From Eonycteris spelaea (taxonomy: Eukaryota; Chordata; Mammalia; Chiroptera; Pteropodidae), in NCBI GenBank assembly GCA_003508835.1, contig PUFA01000530.1, positions 62,001-126,000 on the forward strand: a stretch of DNA of 64,000 bases, in the 5' to 3' direction. Within the stretch, counting starts at the first letter, position 1. The number at the start of each line of letters is the position of its first letter. Below the pieces are notes generated by a model. That model was not told the origin of the DNA and made no database searches. It saw only the letters and a list, made by a program, of their open reading frames with translations. The translations under genes and the position numbers were made by a program. Below, piece by piece: positions 12,601 through 62,396 of the stretch.

Positions 12601-15600
12601 GAAGCTTTGAGAATGAGCCATAGTCCCCACCTCCCCCAAACTGCTGAGTCATGCAGTATCTGTGAAAGTTAGCAGCTGCCTCAGCTAAATCTGTCTCCTA
12701 GAGATAAAGTAGGTTGTAGCTGGAGGGATTCTGGGTCCAAGCAAGAGGCCTTTTTTCCCCTCTGCCACATATGCAATGTTTCTTTAGTTACTATCTGAAT
12801 TAGACTAGATAATTCCATGTGAATGGTTTTTTATTCCCTCTCTTCTTCTTTGCCTCTTTCTTTTGGATACATTTTATCTTGCCAGGTTCTAGACCTTTGG
12901 GAAAAGTGGAACAATTTCCAAAGAAAACTGTGAGTATAAAATTCTTTACAGTGCAATTTGTTCCTAATATAATTAAGAAAGCTGTCTCCTTTGAATGTTC
13001 TGTACTATCTGTGACAGGTGGATTAAGAATAGTTCTTCACTCTTAAGAACAGAGAAGGTAAATGCTAATTATCTTTTTGTGTGTGTGTGAATGTCGCACT
13101 TTAAACAATGACTTTGAGCTTGAGACTATATACAGTACTAAAATTTATCATGACCTGTTCATATGAGTTCATAGAGAGAACAACTAAGTAACTTAAAACA
13201 AAATAATACATAATACTGATTTGAGTGTCCATAGAATGATTTAATTCTATAGCCAACCTAGTAAAGGTCACCCACAGAGTAGTAATTATATTTACAAAGG
13301 GTATTAAAATTTGAACTTTATATTGAATATTCCAGCTGAGAGAAGCTAGGGGAAATTGCCTATATCCAGATAAATGAAGGTAAACTCTATGGAGATTTTG
13401 CAGGATTTGTCACAAATCCATTGGATCCCATTATAGAAAAGGAGTATTTTTTGTTGTTTGCGAGTACAATGTTTTCTATTTCAAAGGCCAATTACTAAGA
13501 TACTAATAATTTGAAATTTTAGATTGGTTACACAATGATTTGTAGTGCTTGTGAATTAAGCAAGTAAAAAGAGTAAACTTTTGATTTGTAGTGCCTATGA
13601 ATTAAGCAAACAAAAAGAGTAGAGAATATATGAGCTACATTTTTAAGTAAGAAGAAAACATTGTTAAACGTTTGTATATATCATTGGACAAATAATTGCA
13701 GGCTATCTTTTTAAATCATTCATTAAATTGAGTTCAGAATGATTAGTACTTTTCAACACATTAGCCTTTGAAAGCTTTTTAAAATCATATTTTATCTACC
13801 TGAAACTCAGTGATTTCACTAATTTAGACCAACTTGCATCATTAATACTATTTATAAAAAGATAAATGTTGGTATAAGTTTATACCAAGAGTTGGAAAAG
13901 TGTTCTAATGATTCAAGAATTATTAGCCTAATGATAGTTGTATATGTTAAAATTGCATAAATATACTATAGCCCTTCTAACAATAATAGGTTTTTATAGG
14001 CTTAAATGTACCTAAACGTAAGTCCAACATGAGTATATGCCTTGGGACATGTAAAATGGACAGTATACTAGAAATTTGAGAACCAGAAATAGACAGAAGT
14101 TTTTTAACTTGCAGGATATGGAGAGTGGTGGGCCAAAGGTGCTGGAAACAGCAGAAGAGATCCAAGAGAGGCGGCAGGAGGTGTTGACTCGGTACCAGAG
14201 GTTCAAGGAGTTGGTTGCTGAGAGGGGCCAGAAACTTGAAGAGTCCTATCACTACCAGGTTTTCCGACGGGATGCAGATGACCTGGAGAAGTGGATCTTG
14301 GAGAAACTCAAGATTGCAGGAGATAAAAGCTATGAAGACCCAACTAACATACAGGTCATTCAGTTCCACTGAGTTCCCCAGAGCAGACCCTAAAATCTCT
14401 AGAAAGGGAAACATTTTTGTAATGTAAGTGTATATCTGTTTAACTGCAGGAAGATGATGTAATAGAAAGATTAGACTACATATTAGGGGCAGTAATTTTG
14501 CCTTTAAATAGCCCATAACTTCATCTTCTTAAGCCCACATATTATTAACAAAGGAAATTAATTCTAGGTAACATTCTATGACCATAATGTTCATCCAATA
14601 TTAAACTCTGGGCAAAAAAGTGACTGAGAATTCAAAGAATTTTTTCATATAATTTCAATATTTTGTGACATTAAGGATGGAATTGAGGTGAAGAGACATC
14701 AATGCTTCTGAAACAGTTGATTTTCACTCTCTTCAGAAACACATGAGTTAATTAGGATTTTACATTTTTTTCTCCAATGTTTAGTCATGCCCCTTGTTAA
14801 GTTCAAATGAGAGGTCCCAGGAGAACCTTGATGGAAGTTTCCACCCCTACCTGTACAATAGCATGTGGCATAGTCATGATCAGAAGAAAGGTTTACATGC
14901 AATTAGTACTGGAGAGGGAGCACTTGTAATAAGAACAAAGTGATATTTATTAAATGTATCAACATTTAATAACAATAATAACATAATCTGGCATGTAAAA
15001 ACTTAATTTTTCAAAAGGCATTATTATAATGCCCATCTATCTTCCTTATTGTTCTTAACTGCACATAATTTTTATTTTCTGAGAAGAAATTCTCTTTTTT
15101 GAAGAGGAAAACCTCCATTACATTCTTTCATTTCCACAGAAGACAACTAAGACTTTAAAATAATGAATTATTTATTAGAGATTTTTCAAGGCAGTAGGGA
15201 AAGGAAAAATATCTATCTCAATGGTCACTGACTTTGAGCCTGGGAGTCTTTGAAAACCTTTGTGCGATGGCTCTCTCTTAGAGTGACCATTTCTTTTAGG
15301 ACGTGACTCCTTCAGCTATGGTCATAGGTTATTATTTAATCCAGGCTGGGCAACAAGTAGTTCTTCCTCGAAAGTAAGAGGAACAGAAAGACCTCTATAA
15401 TCCAGAGAAATTAGGTTTCATTAGCTATAAACTTTTATTTCTAAACTTCAGGGAAAATATCAGAAACATGAATCCTTCGAAGCAGAGGTGCAAGCAAAAT
15501 CAAAGGTTATTCCTGAGCTGGAAAGAATCAGCAAAGTTCGATTTGCTGAGGGACATTTTGCGCATGAGGACCAAGGTATGGTTCTTGAAGACAAGTTTCT

Positions 15601-16732: not shown

Positions 16733-16778
<46 letters not shown>

Positions 16779-18527
16779 ATAAGCCAGTAAAATTGTAGTT
16801 CTTGTATTTTCTGGCGAACAGTTCATGTTGTTTCTTCTATGACTTTGTCAGTGCTTACTACACCCTCTGATCATTAACTATCTGTCAAAATTCTACCAGT
16901 TTCTCAAGCTCCAGTTCAAATAAACACTCTTCCATGAATCCTTACTCCATCCTGTCTTAGTGTTTGTAATCACTTTATTTTCTAAAACCCCAAAGCATTT
17001 CTGAAAAATTTAATCTTATGGAAGATAATATCTGGCTTGATTTAATAGCTATTACCATAGATATTATATTTTCTCTTTTAAGTATTTGTTGAGCTATTAG
17101 TGTGCAAGTGAAAGGGAAGAGACATTTTTATCTAGGTCCCTCTACACGCAAGTCTCTGAGTCTACACCTACTCCACAACCTCTGTGAATGAGTGGTTTTG
17201 CCTCTCCTACCCTAAGATCCATCTGAAGGAATTGCGCCACCTGTGGGACCTGCTGATAGAGCTGACTCGGGAGAAGGGGACCTTGCTGCTGCAAGCCCTG
17301 AAGCTCCAGCAGTACTTACAGGAGTGTGCCGACATCTTGGAGTGGATTGAAGACAAGGTATAGACAAAACAATATGCATAAGACTTTGTACCTCTCTATC
17401 CCAGGCATAAAGAAGTCAGGATGTCTGTTCCTGAACTTTGATCCTTGAAAAAATGAGGAATTTTGGCAAAGATTTAGAGGTATTCTAGAAGTGGTTAACA
17501 CTGGGTGGGAGGAGGATAAATCCACATATATGAATATAAAGAAGGCAAGATTTACACCAAAACTGTGCATTGAAAAATGATCTAGGCTTGTTCCTTTTTT
17601 ACCTTTCATGATCCTCAACTCCCTCCTTCTAAATTTTTGCTCTTACTTCGGGTATAGGCTGAGATCATTGCTAGCTTTTTCCCTAGCCCCTTGTATCTCA
17701 ATGACTATAATTATGGAGATTCCTATTTTTCTACATACTTAAATAATACTATAGCTAAGGCTGAAGATTTACACAAGGAAGTGCTTAGCACAATGACTTT
17801 GTAGATTTTCAGTATGTTGAATTAAGTAGAACCAGGATGAATTTTTTTTATGTTCCAAATTTATGTTTTATGTTACAAAACATAAAGGCTGTTTCCATTG
17901 GTGCTGGCCAACAATGCCCCCTATTCTTTAACGGATTAATGATTACTCTTAAGGCACCATTCCCTGGGCCAGGGTACCACTTCAGAAAATACACTCTTGC
18001 TTCTGGCTCTTTTCAGAAATAGTTCCCCAGGCTTCACCTGTATTTCCTTCTGAGTTATCCTAGGAAGGCAGACAGCTATTTGAGACATTTTACCTGAAGA
18101 AATTTTTAAATCTTTGCTGGTGACTCAATAGACTATTCTGTGTCTACAGGAGGCCATAGTGACATCAGTAGAACTGGGTGAGGACTGGGAGCGCACAGAG
18201 GTTCTGCATAAGAAGTTTGAAGAGTTCCAAGTGGATCTGGCAGCTCGAAAGGGGAGAGTGGATAGAGTAAACCAATATGCCAATGAATGTGCTGAGGTGA
18301 GGAGGGGAGCAAAAGAGTTCATCCAGGGAAACTGTTCTGATCTTCAAGAAGAACTTCTAGCTATTAGTATGTGGGACATAAGGCATATAGGACATTGTAA
18401 AAACAGACAAACAAGCAAACGAACAAAAAGAGATGGATGCATGTTCCAGGAGTAACATGCCCAAAGCAGTTTCTTCTGCTTTCTGGATCCATTCTTTGCT
18501 AGTTCATGGAAATGCAGGTGTGAATAA

Positions 18528-18574
<47 letters not shown>

Positions 18575-19429
18575 TGCAAAGGAATTAAATACACAATGAA
18601 GTAACTCCTGCACTGTGCACTACACTAATTACTCATGTTTATACAGCACTCCTTCTTCGTGAAGAAGAATCAGAATAAAGTAGCAAAGAATGTAAAATAA
18701 TGGTGGGCTATCATAATATATATGGTATCATTATACATAATTTTTATGTGGGAGGAGGGGAAAGGAAGCAGATTAAACTTTAGTTTCTTAAGAAAATGCT
18801 TAAATAAAGTTTTTAATATCTGAAGAGACAAATACTCAGTGTGTGGATAAATAACCCGATTATATGCAAGAAAACTAGGAAATGAGTCTGATTTTATGTG
18901 TATATAAAAACACTAGAAACTCCTACAGTTGGCTCTTATGCTTTACCATTTATTGTTTCATTTTCACTACAATCTTATAATGGGAACTATTTTTCTGAGT
19001 TAATAGAACCAAGATTTCACAATGAATCGGTATCAATGTAGGGAAAATAATCTGTTTATTCATTTTTTTCCAGGCTATATTTCCAACAGTTTCAAAATTT
19101 ATTCTGTCTACTCTTTCAAATGTTGTAGAAATTTTTCAGTTATCTACTGCTATCTAACAAACTGCCACAAAACTTAAAACAACAAACATTTTTTTCATAA
19201 TTTAGTGAGTCAGATTCACTGATTCATCAATCAGTGATTCAGCTGCTCATTTGGGCAGTTCTCCTGATGATTTGGTAATCATTTCACCTGGTATTTTTAA
19301 GCATCTGTAGTTATTTGGTGGCTCAGTTGGGGTAGAGGACCTAAAATGGCCTTGCTCCCATGTCTGGGGCCTTGGCAAAGATAATGAAGGCTTAGTCCAC
19401 ATGGTCTCTTATATTTCAGTAGTCCATGA

Positions 19430-19470
<41 letters not shown>

Positions 19471-22400
19471 GTGTTTCACAAAGGCATTGAAAAGAAGCTG
19501 AAATGCCTCGTAAGGCCTAAGTGCTGGAGTTAATAGACTATTATTTCTGTCACATTTTATTGCTAAACCAGTCACAGTCCAACTTTTATCCAAAGCATGA
19601 GGAAATAGACTCCATCTTTTGGAAGGGGAATGCCATGGTAAAATAATGTGGCCATTTTTTTTTTTCTGTCAACCATAGGAAGGGTTAATTCAACACAGAG
19701 TTTATCTCTTGCTCTTTTGAAGTGGGGCTCACATAGCTATAATACAAAAAGTCATACCCTCAGAAAGAGGAAAATTCTCTCTGAAGAGGCTTTGGAATAC
19801 AAATGGAAATGGAAAGAAACAGGAACAGAAGGACTACGCAGTCTCGGACATATGGGAACTGCTCAAAATTTCCAAGTATCAAAATAGTCTGATGCTTCTA
19901 GGTTAATCTGGTATTCATAAATTTCATTGCTTCAGATAGCTTACAAAATTGTATTAAATTTTCTGCAAAGTTAAATGAGTGTGCATTTGTGTATAAGTCT
20001 GGGTGGAGGAAAATTGTTCTTATAGATTCTCAAAAGTATCAGGACCCCAAAAGAGTTAAGAATCACAGTATTTTGGAAAATTAATAAATATTTCACAAAG
20101 GGAAGTTCTTCTTCTTCTTCTTCTTCTTCTTTTCTTCTTCTTCTTCTTCTTCTTCTTCTCTTCTTCTTCTTCTTCTTCTTCTCTTCTTCTTCTTCTTCTT
20201 CTTCTTCTTCTTCCTTCCTCTCCTCCTCCTCTCTCCTCCTCCTCCTCCTCCTCCTCCTCCTCCTCCTCTCTCCTCTCCTCCTCTCTTCTCTTCTCCTCTC
20301 TTTCTCCTCCTCCTTATTCTTTGTTTCCAGGATTTTCAGGGAGTTTAGCAGGAATAAACAAGGTGTTCTGGAAAAAAAAATCATGTTTAGGCAATGTGTG
20401 TTAGTAGGCTAGACCAGTGTTGTGGAAAAAATATACAATATTATTTTTCAAGTTAGTTTTCTAGATTTTGATAACGTAGATCAGGTTAGAGCTATGGATC
20501 AGGGCAAAAGTGAATTTTAGTATCTGGCTGTCTGGCCATTTTTCACTTCTAACAATATATAACCAGTCTGTAATAAAGTGTTTAAATAATGGAATAATGT
20601 CCCATGCATAACTCCATAATGTGCTTCCTCTCAAAGGAGAACCACCCTGAGCTGCCTTTGATTAAGTTAAAGCAGGATGAGGTGAATGCCTCCTGGGAGC
20701 GTCTCCATGGTCTGGCTCTTCAGAGACAGAGGATATTGTCCAATACTGCAGACCTCCAGAGATTCAAAAGGTATGAATCTGGGCACTGCATTATAGGAAG
20801 CTCTTCCATAGCATTGTTTTAATTTGTGTTAGCATCTGTCTACTATTAGCAATTAGTGGCCAATACCTCAAACCAAAGAAAATTGTGTACTTGCCTTTAA
20901 GATATAGAAAAGGGTAGTTAAAAACAAACAAATAAACTGTAACCCACCTTATATCCAAGTTGTGGTGACTGGAGCCCAAAGCAGTAAAAATAGCACTGGT
21001 GAATTAGTGGTGGAAGCTCTGGAGAGGCAAAAAAAAAAAAAAGCAGATTAAGAATTGAAAGGTGGAGTTGGGAAAAAGAAATTCGCTAAGAGTTGGCCTG
21101 GATGTGGGAAGTATATCTGGAGGCTGAATTGTAAGGGTGTCTAGGTCTCTATATCTCAATGGAAAACATTAAAAGCAAGAACTTTTTACATTACTTTTTG
21201 CTATAGCGTAGGAAGACAGGGAAATTTCTAACTGATGAACTAAGTTGGGTCTTCCTGTGGGCTCTGTTTGCCCTGGAATACCTGCCATCTTCTTTTGCTG
21301 GAGCTCATGTAAATGTCTGGCAGGGATGTGACTGAAGCTATTCAGTGGATCAAGGAGAAAGAGCCTCAACTAACCTCTGAGGACTATGGAAAAGACCTTG
21401 TTAGCTCTGAGGCACTGTTTCACATTCACAAGGGACTTGAGAGAAATCTTGCAGTCATGGATGACAAGGTAAGCCACTTTTAGAGGAATGTCTGGAAGAG
21501 ATATTTGGTGATAACCTTGCCTCCAAATTTACTATTTCAATAAAGTAGAAATTCTGTGGCTCTTGAACATAACTCTTCATTTTGGTTCATAACTTATATG
21601 TGAATATTAGGTAATTTTTATTTTTTAAAATTATTTATATCTAAGTATACATCTATGTTTTTTAATATGTTTTTTGTACTACTGAGTTGACTCCTTCTCC
21701 TGGAGACCCAGTGAATAAATGAGTGTTTTCCACAATAGCATGTCCTCAACAACTCTGATAAGCTCCTGTAGACTCATGCTTATGGTTTCTTTTATGGAAT
21801 CAATATATCTCATATTTGGTCTTCCTCTTTTCCTGCTGCCTTCTACTTTCTCAGAAATGTTGTATTTTTCAAAGAATCCTGTCTTCTAATGATGTGCCCA
21901 AAGTAAGATACCTCCAGTTTTGTCATTTTTGCCTCCAGTGAAGCTTTAAGCTCAGTTTACTCTAGGATTCACTTATTCATCTTTCTGGCAACCAGGGTAC
22001 CTGTACAGCTCTTCTCCAATACCACAATTCAAATGAGCCATTTTTTTTTTTATCAGCTTCTTCAATGTCGAGCTTTCACAGCTGTACATAGTTATCAGGA
22101 ATACAGGGGTGTGGATGATCTTAGTGTGGTCTCTAATGACATATCTTTACTCTTGGTGATCTTTTCTAATTGTTGGCCCTCCTAATCTCAGCCTACTCTT
22201 GATTTTTAGGTTGCAATCTCCATTTGAATTGATGACCAAACCTATAGAAGAAAAATATTTAACAATTTCAATGTCTTCTTTGTCTACATTAAAGTTGTGT
22301 ATTTCCTTTGTAGTTTGAATTTTTTTCTCTTTTTGAATTCAAATGCAGTCCCACTTCAGTGCTTTCTTCTTTCACTTTCATCAGAAGTCATTTCAAATTA

Positions 22401-28400: not shown

Positions 28401-28860
28401 TTCAGTTAATGTTCAGTCAATACGGAGCTTAATATCATCCCTTATTGTTACATATACTTATTCTGCAGATTCTTATTGATAAAAGCTAAAGGTGTAAAAT
28501 AATTTTATTGTTTATAAAGTGTTATCATTCATTTTAGATTATTTTCTTAGTCCTATTTAATTATCAATCTTTACCTCTAGTAATTTTTTTGAGGGGGGAA
28601 GAAGCTAGGTTCAAGAATAAATATGAGTACAAATTTACCTCTACAATATTTGACTTCTTTCTTTATGTAGCTGGAGATATAGATATAGGTATAAATATAA
28701 GTACATGTAATAGATGATAGTTAAATAATAGAGGTAGATATATACATACATAATGTATACATACATACATACATACATGATGATAGATACATGATAGACA
28801 GATAGATGATAGATAGTTGATAGATAAATAGATGATAGATAGAAATATAGATAGATAGAT

Positions 28861-28903
<43 letters not shown>

Positions 28904-34900: not shown

Positions 34901-35580
34901 GGTATCTCACTGTGGTTTTGATTTGCATTTCCCTAATAAGTAGTGAAATTGAGCATCCTTTCATGTATCTGTGGACCAATTGTATGTCTTCTTGAGAGAA
35001 TTGTCTATTCAGGTCCTCTGACCATTTTTAATTAAATTTGTTGTTGTTGTTGTTGTTAAGTTGTATGAGTTCTTTATATATTTTGGATATTAGACCCTTG
35101 TCAGAGACATTGTTCACAGTTATAGTATCCCATTTGGATGGTTGTCTTTTTGTCTTGTTGATGATTTTATTTACTGTACAGAAGGATTTTAGTTTGACAA
35201 AGTCCCATTCATTATTTTTGCTTTTAATTCCCTTGCCTTTGAGGTCAAGTTTATAAAATCTTCTCTAAGTCCAAGGTCCATGAGTTAAGTATCTAGATTT
35301 TCTTCTAATAAAATATTATTTCAGGTCTTATATTCAGGTCCTTGATGCATTTGTGTTCATTTTGGTGTATGGTGATAGACAGCAGTCTAGTTTTATTTTT
35401 TCTCATGTGGCTTTCTTTCCTTCCTTCCTTCCTTTCCTTCCTTCCTTCCTTCCTTCCTTCCTTCCTTCCTTTCCTTCCTTCCTTCCTTCCTTCCTTCCTT
35501 CCTTTTCCTTCTTCCTTCCTTCCTTCCTTCCTTCTTTCTTTCTTTCTTTCTTTCTTCTTTCTTTCTTTCTCTTCTCTCTC

Positions 35581-35611
<31 letters not shown>

Positions 35612-47600: not shown

Positions 47601-48582
47601 AGTAACACTATTGGAACTTTGACATTTTTATTATTTTTAAATGGAACATTCTGAGTTTATCTCTCTGTTCTCAATGCTATTTTTCTTATATTTTTATTTC
47701 CTCCTCTCCTTTCCTGTTCTTCTTTTGATTTCTCTCTCTTTTTTTTTGTTTCTTTCATTCTCTTTCTCACCTGACCTCTACTCTTTTTTGTTTTCTCCAT
47801 CTGTTATTCCACATTTCCCATTCTCTTCATTTATCCACTTAGGTACCACTTCCCTCCTTGATCGAGCAGAAGAACGCAGGCGTCGTCTATTGCAATGTTA
47901 CAATGAGTTTCTGTTGGCCTATGAGGCAGAGGACATGCTGGACTGGATCCGAGATAAAAAAGCAGAAAACACTGGGGTAGATCTAGATGATGTTTGGGAG
48001 CTGCAAAAAAAGTTTGATGAGTTCCAAACGGTGAGAAAGAGGGACCACTTTCTTTAGACAGTTTTTTTTTTTGAGGGTTATCATTGTTTTCTTTTATCTC
48101 ACATCTCCTAAGTAAGTCTTTAATTTCACATTTGTTAAATATTCTCCCCAAAGCCACTGAGGTTCCAAATTTTACAACTTTCTTTGGTATTGTAGGTGCA
48201 AGGAAAATTCAGAGGGAAGTAACTACCTTAATTTTATAGCCTGCAGTTTCTGCTACCTCCAAGTACTGCAGGGAGTGCTGATCTTTCTGAATTTTTCAAA
48301 ACTTGCTCTATATTATACTGTGTTCCTGATGCCCAGGTTGAGATGTGGTGTTTTTGGACTCTATGGAAAGTCTAATTATGGGGTAGAGTTGGATGGGAAG
48401 ATGGGAAGGACAACCTGAATTTACAGCTAGAAAGTTTCTAAGTTTCTGCCTACATAAAACCCTTCCATTCTCCTTTATTCTCTAACTCATATTATCATTT
48501 TAATTGAGTGAGAATAACCTCTCCTTTTTTTCTACTTGTAGTTTCCATATGGAATTCAAAGTGATGTAAACAGATTAGATAA

Positions 48583-48647
<65 letters not shown>

Positions 48648-54600: not shown

Positions 54601-57600
54601 TTAATTCCATTTTTTTTAAATCATCATAATAACTACTTTCTTCTTTTTTATTATAGAATAGTTGAAGCAGGTCTGTAGCTGCTAAATTAGTAGGTTTGAG
54701 GAAGGATCTACATTTCATTAGAGCTTTGTAATCTCTATCACATGAGCAATAGCGGTGGTGAGCAATGGGTGAAGGTAGTGGAAGTGATGAATAGTGTGAT
54801 TTTTGTATCATATGACACACTAGTTGTACTTTTGGAAGTACAACTTGCTTTTAAATTCTTTCTGCAGAATGCATCACTTGACACTTGAATATTTAATAAA
54901 TTGATCTGTTACTTTCCTTGCTTTAAAACGATATGGATTTTAACAGATGTTAATAATAGTGTAGTACTAGTTTATGATGTAGAGAACTGATAAACATTTT
55001 AAACTACATTTTAAACTACATGAAACAGAATTAAACATACATGTATAACTCAGCCATAATTGTGGTAACTATCTTCAGTTCTCATTTTATTTACCTTGGT
55101 GCCCTTGTAAGTGAGAATTACTTCCTGCCCCCTCCAATTTTTTTCTTTTTCAGACACTTCTCACAAAATTATTTTTCTGCCCTCCAGGTCTAGGTGCACT
55201 CTCTAATCTATTAATCCTTAGCCACCTCATTTTTTAGTCACAGACATTATAACACTTGGTTTCTATTCCTTTCAAATAAGTATTATATTCTTAAACCAAG
55301 AAACAACATTTTTTAAAAACATGATAAAGGAGAGAATAAATATCCTTTATATGTAAATAAACCATAGCTAGTATAAAAGGATATACCGGGTGATTATATT
55401 GACTTCTATGAAAGAAAAATCAACTTTTTTATTATGATGATGACGACATTGGTTATATATATCACAAAATATATTGCATTGTGTTCACTACCCATAGCTA
55501 GAACCCTTTTACCTCATTTACATCCCATCCCTCTACCCTCTGGTAACCACTAGTCTACTGTCCATGTCCATGAGCCTCTGTTTTTTCATGTTTCTTGCTT
55601 TTAAATTTATGTCCCACATATAAGCAAAATCATATGGTTTTTAACTTTTTCTATCCGGCTTATTTCACTCATAAGGACATGATTATCTCAAGATTCATCC
55701 ATGATGTCACAAATGGAAGTATTTAATCTCTTCTTATAGCTGAATAATATTCCATTGTATGCATGTACCACATCTTTATCCAACCATCTATAGTAGGACA
55801 CTTTGGTTGCTTCCATGCCCTGGCCATCATGAATAATGTTGCTGTGAACATCTGGGTACATATTCTTTTCAGATAAGTGTTTTCAAGTCTTTTGGGTAAA
55901 TATCCAGTAGAGGGATTGCTGGGTCATATATAATAGATCAATTCTTAGTTTTTCTGAGAAACTCCGTACTGTTTTCCATAGTGGTTGTACCAATTTGCAG
56001 TTCCACCAACAGTGTTTGAGGGTTCGTTTTTCTCCACATCTTCTCTGACACTTGTCCTGTTGATAATAACCATTGTGATTTTGATTTGCATTTCCCTAAG
56101 AGTTAGTTAAGTTGAGCATCTTTTCATATGTTTGTTGGTCATTTGAATATCTTCTTGGGAGAAGTGACAGTTCAGGTGCTCTGCCATTTTTTAATTGGAC
56201 AGTTTGTTTTTTTTGTTGTTATTGAGTTATATGAGTTCTTTGTATATTTTGGATATTAGGCCCTTATGAGAGACATTGCTTGCAAAAATATTCTCCCATT
56301 CAGATGGTTCTGTCATTTCCTTGTTGAAGATTTCTTTTGCTGTGCAGAAGCTTTTTAGTTTAATGTAGTCCCATTCATTTATTTTTGCTTTTACTTCCCT
56401 TACATCTTCAAATCCAAGGTCCATGGGTTTAGTTCTTATGTTTTCTATGCAATTTATTGTTTCAGGTGTTATATGCAGGTTCTTAATCCATATTGAGTTA
56501 ATTTTGGTGTGTGGTGACAGAATAGTCTAGTTTCATTCTTTGCAAATGGCTTTCCAGTATCCTCAGCACCATTTATTGAAGAGACTCTCCTTTATTGTAC
56601 ATTTTTAGCTACTTTGCCAAAAATGATTTGCCCATGTAAATATGGGTTTACTTCTGGACTCTCAATTCTGTTCCACTGGTCTGTGAGTCTGTTTTTCTAC
56701 CAATACCATGCATTTTGATTATTGTCACTCTGTAGTGTAATTTGAAATCAGGCACAGTGTACCTCCAGCTTGTTCATTTCTCTCAGGATGGCTTTGGTAA
56801 TTCAGGCTCCTTTGTTCTTCCATATAAATTTGATAATTTTGTGTTCAATTTCTTTAAAAATTGCCAATGGGATTTTTGATGGGAATTGAATTAAATTTGT
56901 GTAATGCTTTAGGTAATAAGTTAGTTTTAACTCTTGATTTTTCCAATCCCAGAGCATGAAATATCTTTCCATTTATTTGTCTCCTTCAGTTTCTCTTAAC
57001 AGGATTTTATAGTTTTCATTATATATATCCCTCACATGTTTCATTAAGTTTATTCCTAGAAAATTTATTATTCTTGTTGCAATTGCAAAAGGAATTGTTT
57101 TTATTTTTATTTTTATTTCTTTTTCTGACAATTCATCATTATAGTATAGGAATGCTATGGATTTTTGAACATTGACTTAGTATCCTGAAACTTTACTGTA
57201 TCTGCATATTTTTCTAGTAGTGTACTTGTGGAGTCTTTAGGGTATTCTATATAGGGAATCATGTCATCTGTAAGTAGTGACAGTTTGACTTCTTCATTTT
57301 CTATTTGGATACCTTTTATATCTTTCTCTTGCCTGATTGCACTTGCTAGGACCTCCAATGTTATATTGGATAACAGTGGCCATTGTGGACAGTGTTGCCA
57401 TATTTCTTATCTTAGAAGAAAGGTTTTACATTTTTATCATTAGCTATAATGTTAGCTGAGAGTTTGTCCAATATGGCCATTATTATATTAAGCTATTTTC
57501 CTTCTATACTATTTTAAGTGCTTTGATTGTAAATAGATGCTATATATTTTCAAAGGCTTTTTCTACATTTATTGATTTGATCACATTATTCTTTATTTTG

Positions 57601-57769
57601 TTTACGAGGTATGTCACATTAACCGATTTGCATATGTTAAACAATCCCTGTGCCCCTGGGATAAAGCCCACTTGATCATTATGTATAATCTTTTTGATAT
57701 GTTGTTGTATTTGGTTTACTGGCATATTATTAAGATTTTTGCATCTGTGTTTATATGAGATATTGTTCT

Positions 57770-57813
<44 letters not shown>

Positions 57814-60800
57814 TTATCTTCACCAGGTTTTGATATCAGAGTAATATTGGCCTCATAATGTGAATTAGGAAGTATTGATTCTTCTTCAATTTTTTTTGGA
57901 AGAGTTTGAGGAAAATAGGTGTTAAATCTTCTTTTAATATGATTGATAGAATTCACTGGTGAAACCATCTGGTTTTGGTCTTTTATTTTTTTGGTGAGTG
58001 TTTGATGATTGATTCATTTTCCATACTGCTGATAAGTCTATTTAGATTTTCCAGACTTCCATATTCAGTCGAGGAAGGTTCTATATTTCTAAGAAATTTT
58101 CTATTTCTTCTAGTTTATTAAATTTGGTGTTACAGACTTTTTCATAGGATTCTAGTATGATCCTTTGCTGTGTCTGTCATACTTGCTGCTTTAAACACTG
58201 ATTTTGTTTATTTGTGTCTTCTTTTTTTTCTTTAGTGAATCTATCCAGGGATTTGTTAACATTATTAAACTTTTCAAAGAACCAGCTCTTTGGGGCATTT
58301 ATTTTTTCACCTTATTTTTTTTGTCCTCGATTTCATTCAGTTCTGCTCTAATTTATCTCTTTCTTTTTGCTGACTTTAGGTTTCATTTGTTTTTCCTTTT
58401 CTAGGTGTTTTTTTTTTTTTTTTTAAGATGAAGCATTAGGTTGTTTATTTGGGCTCATTCTTGTTTTTGGAGATAGGCCTGCAATTATATGAACTTTCCT
58501 TTTATGACTGCTTTTGTCATGTCCAAAAGTTTTGATATGTTGTATTATCTTTGTCATTCGTTTCTATGTATCTCTTGATCTCTCTTTTTATTTCTTCTCT
58601 GACCCAGTCATTGTTTAGTAACATGAGATTTAATCTCTATGCATTTGTGGTTCTTCTCGATTTCTTTTTATAGTTGATCTCCGACTTCAAACATTATGAT
58701 CAGAGAATATGGTTGATACGATTTCAACCCTCTTATATTGAAGTTATCTCTGTGTCCCAGTATGTGGTCCATCCTTGAGAAGTTTCCATGTGTACTAAGA
58801 GGAATGTATAAGCAGCTGATCTGGGATGAAAAGCTCTATAAATCTCTATTATGTCCAGTTGGTCTAATGTGCCATTTAAGAATGGTATTCCCTTATTGAT
58901 TTTCTATTTGGATGATCTGTCCATATCCGACAGTGGAGTATTTAGGTCCCCTACTATGATAGTGTTTTGGTCTGTTTCTTCCTTTAGTTCTGTTAGTAAT
59001 TGCTTTATATATTTCGGGGCTCCCTGATTGAGAACATAGATATTAATAAGTGTTATGTCTTCTTGGTGAATGATTCCCTGTATCATTATGAAGTATCCCT
59101 CAGTATCCTTGTTTACCTTTTTTATTTTGAAGTCTACTTGATCTGATATTAGTACCTATACTCCCACTTTTCTCTGAATACCATTTGCTTGAAATATCAT
59201 TTTCCACCCTTCATTTTGAGTCTATATTTGTCTTTGGAGCTGAGATGTTGTTTCCTGGAGGCAGCATATGGTGGGCTTCTGTTTTGTGATTCATTCTGCA
59301 ACTCTGTGCCTCTTTATTGGTTCAGTCCATTTACATTTAGGGTGATTATTGAAATACAAGGTCTTCTTATAGCTATTTTATCTTTTGCTATCTGGTACCT
59401 TGGTTTTTCCACTTCTTCTTTGTCCTTGTGTTTCTATTTTCTTTATTTTGGTGGCTTTTGTGCATTTTCCCTCTGGTTCTTCTTGTTTCATGTTATATAT
59501 TTCAGTTCTGAATCTTTGGTGTGTGGTTACCATTAGGAATATGTAAAGGATAATTATATATATACAGTCATCCATTTTCTTCTGCGTGTGCCTTATATCC
59601 ATTCCACTTTGTGAACTTTGATCTTTGAATCCTCTCCTTTTCAGTCATTTTGTCTTAATTTGTCTTTATGTATGCTGAACGTTCATTACCATCTTGCTAT
59701 AGCAAATCTCTTCTTATTGTTTAAACTTATAATGTCCTTTTTTTTAGTACGTGTCGCACTCCTATGCTTCTGCCTGCTTTCTAGTTGCCTTACTCATATA
59801 TATGTGTGTGTGTGTATATATATATATATACATATAATATATATATATGTAATATATATATATATGTATAATATATAGTCATTATTGTGTTTTAGATGAG
59901 CTGATGCCTTTCAATATTTCATGTTGTGCAGGCCTCATAGTGGAGAATTCCCGCAATTTCTGTATGTCTGAAAAGGTCTTAATCTCTCCTTCACAGGTAA
60001 AGGAGAGCTTAGCTGGATACACTATTCTATGCTGGTAGTTCCTCTCACTTAATAGTTTAAATATTTGATTCTATTCCTTTCTGCTTGTAAGGTCTGCACT
60101 GAGTAGTCTGATGATAATCTAATGGGGGTTTATTTATAAATTACTATTTTGTTATCCCTGGTTGCCCTGAGAATTCTATCTTTGCTTTTGATTTTTGATA
60201 ACGTTAATAAAATGAGTCTTGGATTGAGATAATTAGGTGTTCTGTTGACTTCTTGAATTTCAGGTTTCAGTTCATTCTTTAGTTTTGGGAAATTCTCATC
60301 CACTATTTGTCTGAAAATACTTTCTAGTCCTTGCTCCTTTTCCTCACCTTCGATAATGTCCATTATTCTTATTTTACCTCTCCTGACAGTATCAGCTAGT
60401 TTTTGTATTTCTCTTTCATTATTTTTCATTCTTTGGTTTCTCTTTTCTTTCTGATTTATTTCTATATTTCTGTCTTTGATATCAATGATCCTTTCCTCCA
60501 TTTGGTTAACTCTATTTCCCAAGATTGCTATTTCATTTTTCAACTCTTGTGATGTGTTTTTCTTTTTTTCTCCAGAAGATCTATTCTGTTCTTTTTGAGG
60601 GTTTCAATATTTGCTCTGATCATCTTGTTGTTTTCTCAATTCCTGAAATTGCTGACATGACTCGTGGTTGTGGGATGGGCCATTTCATGTCTTCACCCTC
60701 CCAAATGTTTTGAGGTGAACTGTTGTTCGAGGTGACCTAGTTGTGAGGCTTCTGTTCAGCCAGACCTTTGACAATTTTTCATACTGGTCACTCAGTAGTT

Positions 60801-60893
60801 TTGTTATGATTTTGGCATAGTCACTAGAGGAAGTGTGTATATCCTTTACCCTTTACCTTCTACATCATCTTGAATCTCTCTATGAGCTATAGT

Positions 60894-60926
<33 letters not shown>

Positions 60927-61157
60927 TACACACACACACATATATATACATATATATATGTATATAATATACAACATATTATATACAACTATATATAGTT
61001 ATATATATAGTTATATATAAATAGTTATGTATATATTTATATATATAGTTATATATATAGCAATATATATAGTAATATATATATAGTTATTTATACATAT
61101 ATAAAGAATAAATAGCAACTATAACAATTTCCTGCAAATAATATTGTGCTCATATAC

Positions 61158-61203
<46 letters not shown>

Positions 61204-62396
61204 TCTATCTGGACTTTCATGTTCCAAATCAAATCTTGCCTTATTCCCTTTAATGTACAGAGGCAATATTCTCACACTCAGAGGAAGTCTAACACTTTAT
61301 TTTACCTCTTTATGACATTTTTGCTTTTTCGGTTGTTTTATATTTTTAAAAATAAGTGACCTACCAGAAGGCACAAAAATGCTTTTTTCAACAATGTTTT
61401 GTAATTAGTAAGCATCCAACAAATTTAGTTTTTTGTATAAGAGAATAAATGAGTTTGCAAAAGAGACTGTTCTGCCCTAGACATGCCTTATTTGAGATTC
61501 CATATTAACATAGATCTTTAAACCTAAGAATCTACTTTAAAGGATCAAGAATCATTAGGATTAATGGAATATAGACAGGTCCAGGATTCCAGGGTGTGGG
61601 TTCTAGTCCAGATGCCTGTTTTTAATTATATCACATGCGCAAATCACTTATTATTCTCTAAGCTGACTTCCTCATGTCTAAAATAAAAATTAAACAAACA
61701 AACAAACAAACAAACAAACAAATAATAAAAAGAATTTCCAGAGCTCTATAGAGGACTAGTACAAGAATCGAGAGAAATAATATGTGAAGAGATTTTCAAA
61801 TGCAAAGAATTGCTGTTATTGTCATGCAGTGAAAATGTCAAACCTATGATCTATGAAGAATATAAAGCTAGAGAGAAAGTGTTAATCTGGAAATATTTTC
61901 TAGAAAGGAATGAGTCCAAAGACAGACAGCCCTGTAGCAAGTTGCAAGTTTTTCTAGTCAATTTCAATATGCCTGTTTTCCCAGAGACCTACAGAATTGG
62001 ATCAGTGGCCTCAGTGACATTGTATCCTCACAGGAGCTAGCTGAGGACTTAACTGGTACTGAGATCTTAATTGAACGACACCAGGTATGGGTACAAAAGA
62101 CATAGCTACTGGTCACATGATTTCAGAACCTTCCCTCATGTTACAACTTTGATAGGATGTCATTGGCCTCACCGGTCTCTTCCCCCTTTTCCCCACAGGA
62201 ACATCATGCTGACATGGAGGCTGAGGCTCCTACTTTTCAAGCCTTAGAAGACTTTGGTGCAGAACTTATAGGTAGTGGGCACTATGGCAGCCCTGAAATC
62301 AAAGAAAAGCTTCATGCTATTAGACTAGAGAGAAACAATTTGGACAAAGCTTGGGAACGACGCAAGAAGATATTAGATCAGTGTCTGCAGTTGCAG
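12600..62396 (+). CDS. SPTA1: SPTA1 locus, exons 1-29 (gene continues right); disabled as given
   Basis: Alpha-I spectrin pairs with beta-I spectrin under the red-cell membrane; tetramers cross-link short actin filaments and give the cell its shape and elasticity. This window carries the N-terminal 58% or so: the partial repeat that binds beta-spectrin head-to-head, about a dozen 106-residue triple-helical spectrin repeats, and the SH3 domain. The beta-nucleation site and EF hands lie beyond the right edge. All 28 introns in view are GT-AG and exon phases agree throughout except at five exons that carry indels (exons 3, 16, 17, 18, 23); the start codon is GTG. Identity is secure from strong exon-by-exon similarity to the recalled human protein. 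Whether it is a functional gene, a pseudogene or a gene with assembly errors is open. Confidence 0.95.
12625..12707 (+). promoter_or_regulatory. SPTA1: Putative erythroid promoter of SPTA1
   Basis: Three erythroid motif types lie within 85 bases, about 200-280 bases before the expected start codon. They are a CACC/KLF-like C-rich box (ccccacctccccc, 12,625-12,637), a MARE/NF-E2 site (tgctgagtcatgc, 12,642-12,654) and a GATA site (agataa, 12,702-12,707). No TATA box is evident. GATA1, NF-E2 and CACC factors are the usual drivers of erythroid membrane-skeleton genes, and the position fits the SPTA1 core promoter. Function is inferred from motifs and position only. Confidence 0.6.
12906..12929 (+). 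CDS. SPTA1: SPTA1 exon 1, coding part, start codon GTG
   Basis: Eight codons, VEQFPKKT, match the family's MEQFPKET start. The first codon is GTG (12,906-12,908) instead of ATG. The donor gtgagt follows, phase 0. The frame is open upstream to an ATG at 12,819, which would add a 29-residue, mostly hydrophobic lead ([14 protein letters not shown]...) before VEQFP. It probably lies in the 5'UTR and has no counterpart in the family. The transcription start was not determined. Confidence 0.85.
12930..14114 (+). other. SPTA1: SPTA1 intron 1
   Basis: gtgagt...gcag. AT-rich; contains a 46-base tandem duplication (13,537-13,628) and no recognised mobile element. Confidence 0.8.
13537..13628. repeat. 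46-bp tandem duplication
   Basis: Two adjacent copies start at 13,537 and 13,583 with gatttgtagtgc and share attaagcaa..aaaaagagta, with a few differences. Confidence 0.85.
14115..14354 (+). CDS. SPTA1: SPTA1 exon 2: beta-binding helix and repeat 1 start
   Basis: 80 codons, phase 0-0, about residues 9-88. It starts [20 protein letters not shown]. The lone helix that completes a triple-helical repeat with the beta-spectrin C-terminus is here: the equivalents of Arg28, Arg34, Arg45 and Leu49 are kept, but the Arg41 equivalent is Leu (FKELVAER). The second codon is ATG (14,118-14,120), an in-frame candidate alternative start. The donor cag|gtcatt is GT but weak at +3 to +6. Confidence 0.95.
14355..15451 (+). 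other. SPTA1: SPTA1 intron 2
   Basis: gtcatt...ttcag. No mobile element recognised. Confidence 0.8.
15452..15575 (+). CDS. SPTA1: SPTA1 exon 3, 2-base deletion
   Basis: Starts [14 protein letters not shown], about residues 89-130. The exon is 124 bases; the next exon needs phase 0, so 126 are expected. Comparison with the family's HEETK end places a 2-base loss (one AG or GA unit) near 15,565-15,570. Spliced as shown, exon 4 is read out of frame and meets TGA at 17,348-17,350. Confidence 0.93.
15890..16170 (+). mobile_element. LINE2-like remnant
   Basis: CT-rich wording such as 'cagaaaatctttcctgaacact' and 'ggaactcactgctt' resembles the L2 3' region. Weak call made by eye. Confidence 0.4.
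16736..16777. repeat. (TG)n microsatellite
   Basis: 21 TG units, uninterrupted. Confidence 0.95.
16870..17010 (+). mobile_element. LINE2-like remnant
   Basis: 'tctcaagctccagttcaaataaacactcttccatgaatccttactcc' follows the L2 pattern 'ctcaagccccacctcctccaggaagccttcc'. Approximate limits. Confidence 0.5.
17217..17357 (+). CDS. SPTA1: SPTA1 exon 4, repeat 1
   Basis: 47 codons starting [17 protein letters not shown] and ending LEWIEDK, phase 0-0, about residues 131-177; length equals that of the family. Its own frame is intact. Because exon 3 is 2 bases short, the joined transcript reads it shifted and stops at 17,348-17,350. Confidence 0.94.
17358..18149 (+). other. SPTA1: SPTA1 intron 4
   Basis: gtatag...tacag. 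No repeat recognised. Confidence 0.8.
18150..18296 (+). CDS. SPTA1: SPTA1 exon 5, repeat 2 start
   Basis: 49 codons, [20 protein letters not shown] at the start and NQYANECAE at the end, about residues 178-226; intact, phase 0-0, very close to the human exon. Confidence 0.96.
18530..18573. repeat. (TG)n microsatellite
   Basis: 22 TG units. Confidence 0.95.
19135..19680 (+). mobile_element. Old mammalian interspersed repeat, family not named
   Basis: Wording such as 'tatctaacaaactgccacaaaacttaaaacaacaa', 'gtcagattcactga', 'tgtctggggcct' and the end 'atgtggccattttt' belongs to a common, diverged mammalian repeat whose name I cannot give with confidence. It is interrupted by a (TG)n tract at 19,432-19,468. 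Confidence 0.55.
19432..19468. repeat. (TG)n microsatellite
   Basis: About 18 TG units inside the old interspersed repeat. Confidence 0.95.
20109..20323. repeat. (TTC)n/(TCC)n polypyrimidine tract
   Basis: About 215 bases of nearly pure pyrimidine on the sense strand: TTC units to about 20,210, then TCC/TCTCC units. Long GAA/TTC tracts can form triplex DNA. Confidence 0.95.
20637..20770 (+). CDS. SPTA1: SPTA1 exon 6, repeat 2
   Basis: 134 bases, phase 0 to 2; [20 protein letters not shown] at the start and LQRFK at the end, about residues 227-271. Intact. The acceptor is an unusual caaag. Confidence 0.95.
20771..21323 (+). other. SPTA1: SPTA1 intron 6
   Basis: gtatga...ggcag. Only a short poly-A run (about 21,030-21,042) is notable. 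Confidence 0.8.
21324..21468 (+). CDS. SPTA1: SPTA1 exon 7, repeat 3 start
   Basis: 145 bases, phase 2 to 0; [20 protein letters not shown] then [13 protein letters not shown], about residues 271-319. Intact. Confidence 0.96.
21625..22720 (-). mobile_element. RTE-clade LINE fragment, antisense (MamRTE1-like)
   Basis: The minus strand, though broken by stops and shifts, encodes RTE-type reverse transcriptase wording. In order it reads [25 protein letters not shown], a broken VRQG..SPYL block, the catalytic RYADD, and the C-terminal [18 protein letters not shown]. These are distinct from L1 wording. The 5' end is lost; the limits are approximate. RTE elements are rarer than L1 in placental mammals. 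Confidence 0.8.
23290..23548 (+). mobile_element. MIR SINE
   Basis: A MIR core pattern: 'gacatttgctagctgagtgatcctgagcaa', 'tcagtttttacataaaaggggactaag', then 'gcgctcagtaaattattatt'. It ends in a (TTA)n tail (23,520-23,548). Confidence 0.75.
23688..23842 (+). CDS. SPTA1: SPTA1 exon 8, repeat 3
   Basis: 155 bases, phase 0 to 2; [20 protein letters not shown] then [18 protein letters not shown], about residues 320-371. Intact. Confidence 0.96.
23843..24771 (+). other. SPTA1: SPTA1 intron 8
   Basis: gtgaag...cacag. A poly-A run at about 23,969-23,984; otherwise nothing recognised. Confidence 0.8.
24772..24907 (+). CDS. SPTA1: SPTA1 exon 9, repeat 4 start
   Basis: 136 bases, phase 2 to 0; [20 protein letters not shown] then LLDRHQQHK, about residues 371-416. 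Intact. The following intron is only 92 bases. Confidence 0.96.
25000..25101 (+). CDS. SPTA1: SPTA1 exon 10, repeat 4
   Basis: 34 codons, phase 0-0; [20 protein letters not shown] then EASDEVLEK, about residues 417-450. Intact. Confidence 0.96.
25300..25551 (+). mobile_element. LINE2 3' end remnant
   Basis: 'attgtgaattctgtgagaactgtaccttattcatctttgggttcccta' and 'ggcacagtgtctggcacatgactgg' follow the L2 3' end. Confidence 0.65.
25552..25761. mobile_element. Short hAT (Charlie-type) DNA transposon
   Basis: Terminal inverted repeats: the left end cagctgttcccaaccatttt pairs with the reverse complement of the right end (cagtggtccccaatcactgg). The inside ('caccagggactgttgctcc', 'cacctcctgctgtgtggcc' like) matches a widespread non-autonomous mammalian hAT. 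The 8-base flanks ctttatat and ctctgtac agree at five positions, as for an old 8-bp target duplication. Confidence 0.75.
26335..26790 (+). mobile_element. LINE2 remnant
   Basis: 'gagtaaaatacaaacttctgagtcc' through 'atttgttaagtgctcagtaatg' follows the L2 3' region; diverged. Confidence 0.55.
26845..26982 (+). CDS. SPTA1: SPTA1 exon 11, repeats 4-5
   Basis: 46 codons, phase 0-0; [20 protein letters not shown] then DNWMSRQE, about residues 451-496. Intact. Confidence 0.96.
26983..27614 (+). other. SPTA1: SPTA1 intron 11
   Basis: gtaacg...tacag. Nothing recognised. Confidence 0.8.
27615..27725 (+). CDS. SPTA1: SPTA1 exon 12, repeat 5
   Basis: 37 codons, phase 0-0; [20 protein letters not shown] then FTAQEEKIT, about residues 497-533. 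Intact. Confidence 0.96.
28675..28913. repeat. (GATA)n/(TACA)n compound microsatellite
   Basis: TATA/GATA and TACA units at the left, then a long imperfect GATA run with a pure stretch at about 28,860-28,905. Probably length-variable. Confidence 0.93.
29045..29945 (+). mobile_element. Unclassified repeat with L1-like 3' end
   Basis: The last 60 bases or so (about 29,885-29,945: 'gttgtacacttgaaactaat', 'gaactgtaattaaaaat') match the 3' end of L1 copies here (reverse complement of about 53,785-53,835). The GC-rich upstream part is not L1 coding. It has internal repeats: 'ccttttga..ccccaggct.ag' at about 29,059 and 29,446, and 'agctcca..cccatcacaggca' at 29,520 and 29,580. It could be a non-autonomous element copied by L1, or an L1 3'UTR variant unknown to me. 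Confidence 0.5.
30187..30264 (+). CDS. SPTA1: SPTA1 exon 13, repeat 5
   Basis: 26 codons, phase 0-0; [20 protein letters not shown] then ADIRDG, about residues 534-559. Intact. The next intron is 145 bases. Confidence 0.96.
30410..30565 (+). CDS. SPTA1: SPTA1 exon 14, repeats 5-6
   Basis: 52 codons, phase 0-0; [20 protein letters not shown] then [13 protein letters not shown], about residues 560-611. Intact. Confidence 0.96.
30566..31532 (+). other. SPTA1: SPTA1 intron 14
   Basis: gtaggc...gtcag. About 30,630-30,790 and 30,985-31,110 carry MIR-like wording ('tagatgaggagacagaatctcagagaa'); otherwise nothing. Confidence 0.75.
31533..31737 (+). CDS. SPTA1: SPTA1 exon 15, repeat 6
   Basis: 205 bases, phase 0 to 1; [20 protein letters not shown] then LLEATAQK, about residues 612-680. 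Intact; donor gttaga is a weaker match. Confidence 0.96.
31738..33106 (+). other. SPTA1: SPTA1 intron 15
   Basis: gttaga...cccag. AT-rich; no repeat named. Confidence 0.8.
33107..33287 (+). CDS. SPTA1: SPTA1 exon 16, 1-base deletion and TAG
   Basis: 181 bases; phases of the neighbours (1 in, 0 out) require 182. It reads [20 protein letters not shown] to SEDYGK, then GCC TAG (stop at 33,223-33,225). One G is missing in the run at 33,219-33,220. The rest ([17 protein letters not shown]) is open in the original frame. About residues 680-740, repeats 6-7. Confidence 0.94.
33288..33706 (+). other. SPTA1: SPTA1 intron 16
   Basis: gtttgt...ctcag. Nothing recognised; an ATG-led frame here runs into exon 17 by chance. 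Confidence 0.8.
33707..33949 (+). CDS. SPTA1: SPTA1 exon 17, 1-base deletion
   Basis: 243 bases where 244 are needed (phase 0 in, 1 out). [20 protein letters not shown] is in frame up to FEALK, then a G is missing at about 33,823. The rest, [20 protein letters not shown] to [12 protein letters not shown], is open in the shifted frame. About residues 741-822, repeats 7-8. Donor gttagt. Confidence 0.94.
35411..35691. repeat. Polypyrimidine (TTCC)n/(TTTC)n/(TC)n tract
   Basis: About 280 bases of pure pyrimidine apart from one G (near 35,620). On the minus strand it directly follows the SINE body as its A-rich tail, so it probably grew from that poly(A). Confidence 0.95.
35692..35896 (-). mobile_element. 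5S-rRNA-derived SINE (MEG-R-like)
   Basis: The minus strand from 35,896 to 35,782 is clearly 5S rRNA. It begins gtctatcgccatgccctgaac, keeps the internal pol III promoter parts ggaagctaagcag (box A) and gatgggagacc (box C), and ends aggtgctgtaggc. About 90 unrelated bases follow, rich in AATAAA-like wording, then the A-rich tail. 5S-derived SINEs (MEG-RS/MEG-RL) are described from fruit bats; others exist in a few rodents. It sits inside an antisense L1. Confidence 0.88.
38067..38188 (+). CDS. SPTA1: SPTA1 exon 18, 1-base deletion and TAG
   Basis: 122 bases where 123 are needed (phase 1 in, 1 out). [20 protein letters not shown] to ITER is in frame; one G is missing from the run at 38,166-38,168, giving TAG at 38,180-38,182. 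The original frame would continue NKMVEE. About residues 822-862, repeat 8. Confidence 0.94.
38870..39700 (-). mobile_element. L1 ORF2 endonuclease-region fragment, antisense
   Basis: 'gcatacatatttaggcttgttatgtcttcttgatgaatttaaatc' and the following text are the antisense of the L1 ORF2 endonuclease region, seen in every long L1 (compare about 58,990-59,200). Diverged; limits approximate. Confidence 0.65.
39225..39282. repeat. 29-bp tandem duplication
   Basis: gcatatagttagacttag plus ttttatttat occurs at 39,225 and 39,254, without change. Confidence 0.9.
40544..40761 (+). CDS. SPTA1: SPTA1 exon 19, repeats 8-9
   Basis: 218 bases, phase 1 to 0; [20 protein letters not shown] then [12 protein letters not shown], about residues 863-935. 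Intact and nearly identical to the human exon. Confidence 0.97.
40762..41538 (+). other. SPTA1: SPTA1 intron 19
   Basis: gtaagg...ccag. Nothing recognised. Confidence 0.8.
41539..41631 (+). CDS. SPTA1: SPTA1 exon 20, repeat 9
   Basis: 31 codons, phase 0-0; [20 protein letters not shown] then RDQAEVCQ, about residues 936-966. Intact. Confidence 0.96.
41632..45703 (+). other. SPTA1: SPTA1 intron 20
   Basis: gtaaga...ttag. Contains an antisense L1 5' half (about 42,000-44,285) preceded by a TTC/TCC-rich patch (41,950-41,995). 44,286-45,703 has nothing I recognise. Confidence 0.8.
42000..44285 (-). mobile_element. L1 5' half (5'UTR and ORF1), antisense
   Basis: Antisense ORF1 wording ('cagctgacagttttatgggagtt', 'ttgatttatg..gtcttgg', 'aacatgaatattgtta') occupies about 42,000-42,720. 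GC-rich 5'UTR sequence homologous to 195-1262 follows and ends at 'actctgccatcttaac', the L1 5' terminus. ORF2 is absent. Disabled. Confidence 0.8.
45704..45841 (+). CDS. SPTA1: SPTA1 exon 21, SH3 domain first part
   Basis: 46 codons, phase 0-0. [16 protein letters not shown] leads into the SH3 start: [20 protein letters not shown] (ALYDF motif), then LLSSINK. About residues 967-1012; the SH3 domain is inserted within a spectrin repeat. Intact. Confidence 0.97.
45842..47082 (+). other. SPTA1: SPTA1 intron 21
   Basis: gtgaat...cttag. A poly-T/(TTTG) patch at about 46,727-46,770; a MIR-like patch at about 46,020-46,090. Nothing else. Confidence 0.75.
47083..47234 (+). CDS. SPTA1: SPTA1 exon 22, SH3 domain second part
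   Basis: 152 bases, phase 0 to 2; [20 protein letters not shown] carries the SH3 WW, the Pro in the FVP strand and the final Tyr of the ligand groove. [15 protein letters not shown] follows, returning to the spectrin repeat. About residues 1013-1063. Intact; donor gtaagt. Confidence 0.97.
47235..47842 (+). other. SPTA1: SPTA1 intron 22
   Basis: gtaagt...cttag. A MIR-like patch at about 47,320-47,490 ('aaagggaggcccagtgccgttaagtc') and a pyrimidine-rich 3' part. Confidence 0.75.
47843..48030 (+). CDS. SPTA1: SPTA1 exon 23, 1-base insertion
   Basis: 188 bases where 187 are needed (phase 2 in, 0 out). After GTACCAC an extra T (at 47,850-47,851) shifts the frame, so the spliced reading is YHFPP then TGA (47,859-47,861). 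The remainder is well kept in the original frame: [20 protein letters not shown], then [15 protein letters not shown]. About residues 1063-1125. Confidence 0.94.
48587..48641. repeat. (GA)n microsatellite
   Basis: About 27 GA units. Confidence 0.95.
48890..49640 (+). mobile_element. Old L1 with inverted 5' segment
   Basis: About 48,960-49,320 is antisense L1 ORF2 (minus strand 'gctagaacaattggttagccatttggg', 'gagctgtatttcacacca'). About 49,365-49,640 is sense ORF2 just downstream of that part ('gcatgacaaatatcactataaacaaagtc', 'aggaggaaatatttgcaagacat'). Together they form one L1 stretch with its 5' part flipped. Diverged; no target duplication was recognised. Confidence 0.6.
49863..49964 (+). 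CDS. SPTA1: SPTA1 exon 24
   Basis: 34 codons, phase 0-0; [20 protein letters not shown] then TPEGAQIQQ, about residues 1126-1159. Intact. Confidence 0.96.
49965..50947 (+). other. SPTA1: SPTA1 intron 24
   Basis: gtaact...tttag. Nothing recognised. Confidence 0.8.
50948..51039 (+). CDS. SPTA1: SPTA1 exon 25
   Basis: 92 bases, phase 0 to 2; [20 protein letters not shown] then AHAVQMFH, about residues 1160-1190. Intact. Confidence 0.96.
51040..51899 (+). other. SPTA1: SPTA1 intron 25
   Basis: gtgaga...accag. Carries a MIR; otherwise nothing. Confidence 0.8.
51583..51835 (+). mobile_element. MIR SINE
   Basis: A full MIR pattern: 'gttaagcgtgtagctctgcagtcaggcttcctggttc', 'agtttcagttttcttatacgtaaaatggcaatgataat', 'gggaagattaagtgagcataa'. 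Confidence 0.85.
51900..52044 (+). CDS. SPTA1: SPTA1 exon 26
   Basis: 145 bases, phase 2 to 0; [20 protein letters not shown] then [14 protein letters not shown], about residues 1190-1238. Intact. Confidence 0.96.
52045..52838 (+). other. SPTA1: SPTA1 intron 26
   Basis: gtgaga...cccag. Nothing recognised. Confidence 0.8.
52839..53020 (+). CDS. SPTA1: SPTA1 exon 27
   Basis: 182 bases, phase 0 to 2; [20 protein letters not shown] then [11 protein letters not shown], about residues 1239-1299. Intact. Confidence 0.96.
53775..54560 (-). mobile_element. L1 3' end, antisense
   Basis: Starts at a T/A-rich stretch and 'ttaaattatagttgacacacaatattg', the reverse of the local L1 3' terminus. It runs through the 3'UTR ('agcaaaatactccctaggtcaatccatg'). 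From about 54,380 it jumps to an ORF2 endonuclease-like piece, so it is internally deleted. Confidence 0.75.
55400..60870 (-). mobile_element. Near-complete antisense L1, dead
   Basis: From the 3'UTR (55,400 on) through ORF2 (about 56,000-59,700) to ORF1 (about 59,900-60,720). The ORF2 piece at 57,155-57,358 holds [20 protein letters not shown] then LTDDM, so the catalytic FADD box is LTDD. The ORF1 piece at 60,130-60,543 (137 codons) includes the coiled-coil end and NRTPNYLN. The 5'UTR seems absent. Stops, shifts and a (TG)n tract (57,775-57,812) break it. Confidence 0.88.
57775..57812. repeat. (TG)n microsatellite
   Basis: About 19 units inside the L1 ORF2 region. Confidence 0.95.
60890..61110. 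repeat. (TA)n-rich imperfect repeat
   Basis: About 220 bases of TATA, CACA and 'tatatagttatatata' units at the 5' edge of the L1; self-complementary and able to form hairpins. Confidence 0.9.
61161..61201. repeat. (TG)n microsatellite
   Basis: About 20 TG units. Confidence 0.95.
61560..61820 (+). mobile_element. MIR-like SINE with (AAAC)n insert
   Basis: 'tccagggtgtgggttctagtccagatgcctg' and 'gcgcaaatcacttattattctctaagctgacttcctcatgtctaaaataaaaat' follow the MIR pattern; an (AAAC)n run (61,694-61,722) sits inside. Confidence 0.65.
61985..62084 (+). CDS. SPTA1: SPTA1 exon 28
   Basis: 100 bases, phase 2 to 0; [20 protein letters not shown] then TEILIERHQ, about residues 1299-1332. Intact. 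The next intron is 114 bases. Confidence 0.96.
62199..62396 (+). CDS. SPTA1: SPTA1 exon 29, last in window
   Basis: 66 codons, phase 0-0; [20 protein letters not shown] then [11 protein letters not shown], about residues 1333-1398. Intact; donor gtacag. The family's next exon (starting MFQGNC) was not found before the right edge. Confidence 0.96.

Follow-up and report, generated by a model that had tools for sequence, protein, structure and literature searches.

The window, meaning the whole stretch of 64,000 nucleotides analysed here, carries the first 29 exons of a fruit bat (pteropodid) SPTA1, the gene encoding alpha-I spectrin, and the reading frame of these exons is broken by five small indels. 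The reading that best fits the evidence, with a probability of roughly four in five, is that this is a functional SPTA1 in which the five indels are consensus errors of the assembly, and that full-length alpha-I spectrin is encoded. We infer that the indels are errors and, likewise, that the protein is made in this species. A preliminary description of this DNA had left the choice between a very recent loss, a young extra copy and an assembly with indel errors. The last of these is the best supported. Of the two points that had been raised against it, the GTG in place of the initial ATG does not hold as an argument, and the 2-base loss looks like a missing repeat unit.

Gene identity

The exons in the window span positions 12906-62396 on the forward strand, comprise 4190 coding bases and correspond to SPTA1 exons 1-29; the gene, which has 52 exons in total, extends beyond the window end. 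A tblastn search with human SPTA1 gave colinear exons from 14118 to 62405. The matches listed (at least 55% identity) did not include exons 1, 3 and 5, and those three were located by reading the sequence. Exon 2 searched separately matched a chain of 8iah named spectrin alpha, erythrocytic 1, and 1owa; we take 8iah to be a pig structure.

With the five broken codons written as X, the 29 exons translate into 1398 residues uninterrupted by stops. When this translation was compared with about 5.8 billion proteins, the closest among the matches listed was the SPTA1 model of Pteropus medius (P0001), with 95% identity over 99% of the query. The remaining bats are at 80-89% identity. Names such as erythrocytic alpha spectrin or spectrin alpha 1 are carried by 105 of the best 111 rows (61-95% identity), and non-erythrocytic names first appear below the SPTA1 rows, at 57-58%. 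The colinear exons are thus closer to SPTA1 than to SPTAN1, and their reading frame, as the sequence stands, is broken by the five indels. SH3 is present in the Pfam lists of the relatives of this gene, and presumably the domain lies in exons 21-22.

Long parts of the gene are undisturbed. Exons 4-15 (17217..31737), 19-22 (40544..47234) and 24-29 (49863..62396), all on the forward strand, are open, those of the first group being explicitly in frame. As the preliminary description had said, stops are confined to the shifted frames, and each of the 28 introns has GT-AG ends. The Pteropus model is colinear with exons 2-29 of the window and starts at the same methionine in exon 2, but it differs at 70 amino acids among 1384 compared sites and is whole at all five sites that are broken in the window.

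The start codon

The coding remnant of exon 1 (12906..12929, forward strand) reads GTG GAA CAA TTT CCA AAG AAA ACT, and its human counterpart is, we assume, MEQFPKET. The GTG at the position of the human-type ATG, at 12906, is therefore present as first described, although it is probably not used as a start. Exon 2 (14115..14354, forward strand) begins GAT ATG GAG AGT, and the ATG kept at 14118, from which the protein would begin MESGGPKV, is the likely true start.

Models of related proteins agree with this. P0001 begins MESGGPKV exactly at the exon-2 methionine, and the same start is seen in the models of Hipposideros, Rhinolophus, Pipistrellus, Molossus, Condylura, Phocoena, Zalophus, Hippopotamus, Bubalus and Loxodonta. 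Those of Phyllostomus, Glossophaga, Saccopteryx, Sturnira and Artibeus start two residues earlier (MAM), and those of Lemur, Cynocephalus, Tupaia, Dasypus and Orycteropus have the human-type start. Two uniref models, of mink (P0077) and polar bear (P0085), extend across exon 1 and have valine at the old start (VKHFPKETAMES). All of these starts are predictions rather than measured protein ends.

A script that went through the best 111 rows of the protein search found the exact length of an exon-2 start in 42, and fourteen residues ahead of a marker P, the human-type length, in 28, some of which have no initial methionine. In 15 rows the start lay elsewhere, and the pattern was unmatched in the other 26, among them several with a visible METSGPK or MESSGPK start. 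The human-type start is thus missing from many mammals' models, which begin nine codons later in exon 2.

Translation of the fruit bat gene likely starts at the exon-2 methionine, judging from these comparisons, and the GTG is very likely not disabling. The earlier view of the GTG as a disabling change is rejected: the methionine at 14118 is kept, it is the annotated start in Pteropus and in the predicted models of many other mammals, and mink and polar bear have valine at the old position. The GTG looks like a tolerated state, found in other orders too.

Five indels in the reading frame

All five indels first described, -2 in exon 3, -1 in each of exons 16, 17 and 18 and +1 in exon 23, are present in the sequence. 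Exon 3 (15452..15575, forward strand, 124 nt) is two bases short at its 3' end, where GACCAAG stands against D-T-K in Pteropus. The threonine at residue 129, which adjoins this break, is found in 21 of 21 other mammals. Judging from this threonine and from the D-T-K of Pteropus, and so from protein, the loss has the look of a single AC unit missing from an ACAC stretch.

The three single-base losses had been ascribed to Gs in G runs. Exon 18 (38067..38188, forward strand) is one base short in a G run near 38168. Exon 16 (33107..33287, forward strand) is one base short near 33220, beside Gs, with a TAG immediately after the loss, and exon 17 (33707..33949, forward strand) lacks one near 33824, beside a G. 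Exon 23 (47843..48030, forward strand) has one extra base near 47850. The five indels thus lie at short runs of G, in what is likely an AC repeat and in a stretch of T and C, with the ancestral bases deduced from protein. Slips at such short runs and repeats arise in sequencing and in replication alike.

The net sum of the five indels is -4, and they do not compensate for each other. Rescue by a compensating frame was considered and rejected: the three -1 losses add up to -3, yet the TAG follows directly upon the first of them. By arithmetic on the lengths without indels, the frame would be kept if exons 16-18 together, exon 3, or exons 22-23 were skipped; no support for such skipping was seen in the analysis of the window.

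Exon 3 also encodes an unusual residue, R at 113 (AGA, 15524-15526), where 21 of 21 other mammals have E. Two or more base substitutions are needed for this, and it is perhaps one more small error.

Probable assembly errors

In the proposed explanation, the five indels of one or two bases would be consensus errors, most likely of the long-read type, and the true genome would encode full-length alpha-I spectrin. The comparison with a related species that the preliminary description had called for is consistent with this, since the Pteropus medius model has a residue at every broken site.

If the indels are errors, their rate is 5 in 4190 bases, or Q29.2. The number of errors expected in 4190 bases is 4.2 at Q30, 1.3 at Q35 and 0.4 at Q40, and the probability of at least five is 0.41, 0.012 and 0.0001, respectively. 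From the chances at Q35 and Q40, a well-polished assembly would speak against the error reading.

Contigs before polishing are placed at Q30-35 in an excerpt of PMC8081667, which gives short frameshifting indels from the CLR consensus as the commonest error, and indel errors are likewise mentioned among those of PacBio-based assemblies in a portion of PMC5632298. An assembly of the fruit bat Eonycteris spelaea is described in a passage of PMC6177735 as made from PacBio reads only and polished with Quiver; it serves here as an example of a fruit bat assembly that had no short-read polishing. The window resembles unpolished long-read (CLR) contigs in having short frameshifting indels at about one per kb or fewer, as given in the same excerpt of PMC8081667.

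A second intact gene that could serve as a control for indel errors was not found in the window among the 9 of 41 listed ORFs that were scanned. The olfactory receptor stretch upstream of SPTA1 was considered for this purpose and rejected, as it is itself decayed.

Possible decay and loss of alpha-I spectrin

A very recent true loss of alpha-I spectrin, or a null allele segregating in the species, with alpha-II spectrin or some other change keeping the red cells stable, would account directly for the five frame-breaking changes, all of which would then have arisen in a short time with little other decay. Decay should be visible in other kinds of changes as well, and amino-acid changes were counted in an alignment of the window, P0001 and 21 other mammals at 1384 sites.

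No nonsense changes outside the shifted frames and no splice-site changes were found in the 29 exons, so that the nonsense and splice losses that would be expected of a pseudogene besides indels are absent. The evidence from substitution rates is mixed. The amino-acid differences are derived in the window at 37 sites, one of them (residue 129) adjoining the exon-3 break, and in Pteropus at 32, with 1 unclear. However, the branch of the maximum-likelihood tree is longer for the window (0.0325) than for Pteropus (0.0222), and at sites where at least 20 of the 21 other mammals agree, the window has 11 changes (10 without residue 129) against 5 in Pteropus, and both of these are in keeping with a loss. 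In exon 16 of P0001, four derived changes are clustered at window residues 704, 705, 706 and 708.

Under a model of neutral decay that uses assumed indel/substitution ratios of 0.06-0.15, five indels would be accompanied by a mean of 33-83 substitutions (at ratios of 0.15-0.06), and the probability that these produce neither a stop nor a splice-site hit is 0.019-0.145 at ratios of 0.06-0.15. The Bayes factor for no decay is 11-217 over the same ratios. With the tree-based 45 versus 31 changes, it is 28, 6.0, 2.5 and 1.2 at ratios of 0.06, 0.10, 0.15 and 0.25, respectively. From sequence comparison, the decay test favours no decay, but is not decisive.

Five indels with no stop, no splice loss and no clear excess of substitutions are thus improbable if the gene is decaying. 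The state of the gene in other bats also argues against a loss: the SPTA1 model is whole in Pteropus, and eight other bats have listed models 2404-2413 residues long. An excerpt of a human disease review (PMC11850534) describes homozygous mutations of SPTA1 as lethal. The gene is reported to persist in every mammal examined, according to a passage of PMC13253634, and to be present in all ten bats examined, according to part of PMC4764838. No report of SPTA1 loss in a bat was among the matches listed in full-text literature searches for loss of the gene or for bat spectrin. Gene loss is therefore an unlikely inference, and a fruit bat that keeps stable red cells by other means, after a very recent loss of functional alpha-I spectrin or with a null allele of it, is very improbable.

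Possible extra copies of SPTA1

The window could also hold a young duplicate of SPTA1 in the first stages of decay, with the intact gene at another place in the genome. Extra pieces of SPTA1 may indeed exist in the Pteropodidae, as a second, partial and decayed SPTA1-like model (P0155) is annotated in Pteropus medius. It lies on a 26 kb contig and corresponds to exons 17 and 21-27 of SPTA1. It is heavily changed in exons 17, 21, 22 and at the beginning of 23 and lacks exons 18-20, while the part from the middle of exon 23 to exon 27 is identical to P0001. P0155 also has states that are common to the window and P0001 and absent from 14 other mammals. Its sequence would fit a genuine partial duplicate that underwent recent gene conversion, but also an artefact of assembly. 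For Pteropus medius, a hybrid assembly combining Illumina and nanopore data is described in an excerpt of PMC7403528.

No link between the window and P0155 was found, however. None of the changes specific to P0155 in exons 17 and 21-23 is common to the window, and P0155 is unbroken in exon 17 at the place where the window is broken. The window was considered as the ortholog of this decayed copy and rejected for want of shared changes. It has 12.9 kb of upstream flank, exons 1-29 and every splice site. A decaying copy should show an excess of substitutions, and none is clear, though the tree branch is longer.

The searches with pieces of the gene, which scored about 8000 candidates each, took in only proteins of 0.55-1.75 times the query length and returned many unnamed rows, gave P0155 as the only row named as a fruit bat among the 113 listed. 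No row so named was among the 52 listed in the search with the 5' half, where none exceeded 86% identity. An extra copy is thus possible in the family, on these comparisons, and as an account of the window it is unlikely.

A related idea is a hybrid consensus, in which reads from the true gene and from a decayed partial copy were assembled together. Four of the five indels are in exons 16-23, which is much the stretch that is changed in P0155. Against this, the sequence around the indel in exon 17 of the window lacks every P0155-specific change, and P0155 itself keeps the residue that is broken there. Such mixing is highly improbable, even more so than a true loss.

Other features of the window

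Upstream of SPTA1 is the decayed olfactory receptor mentioned above (3437-4214, forward strand), with frame changes and stops. At about 11050-11510 on the reverse strand, a stretch that resembles what we take to be elongation factor 1-alpha is followed by a stop and is likely a processed pseudogene. A 5S rRNA-like element (35781-35896, reverse strand, 63.8 bits) fits the fruit bat MEG SINEs of PMC7547651, an excerpt of which gives 5S rRNA-derived elements as the only known active megabat SINEs. Together with the protein match, this element indicates that the DNA probably comes from a fruit bat other than Pteropus medius. An L1 ORF1-like stretch (Transposase_22) is found at 60130-60603 on the reverse strand, and more long repeats, near 7.5-8.6, 34.4-37.1 and 54.1-57.7 kb, have an L1-like appearance, from which the name is taken. 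ARAGORN called a tRNA-Trp at 44999-45095, which is probably a chance match.

Implications

The shifted SPTA1 start, nine codons downstream in predicted models, is worth knowing for gene-loss screens and for the annotation of SPTA1. An error rate near one per kb can make a healthy 52-exon gene seem dead. A true loss of alpha-I spectrin from a mammal, should it exist, would put an end to the view of this protein as essential for red cells.
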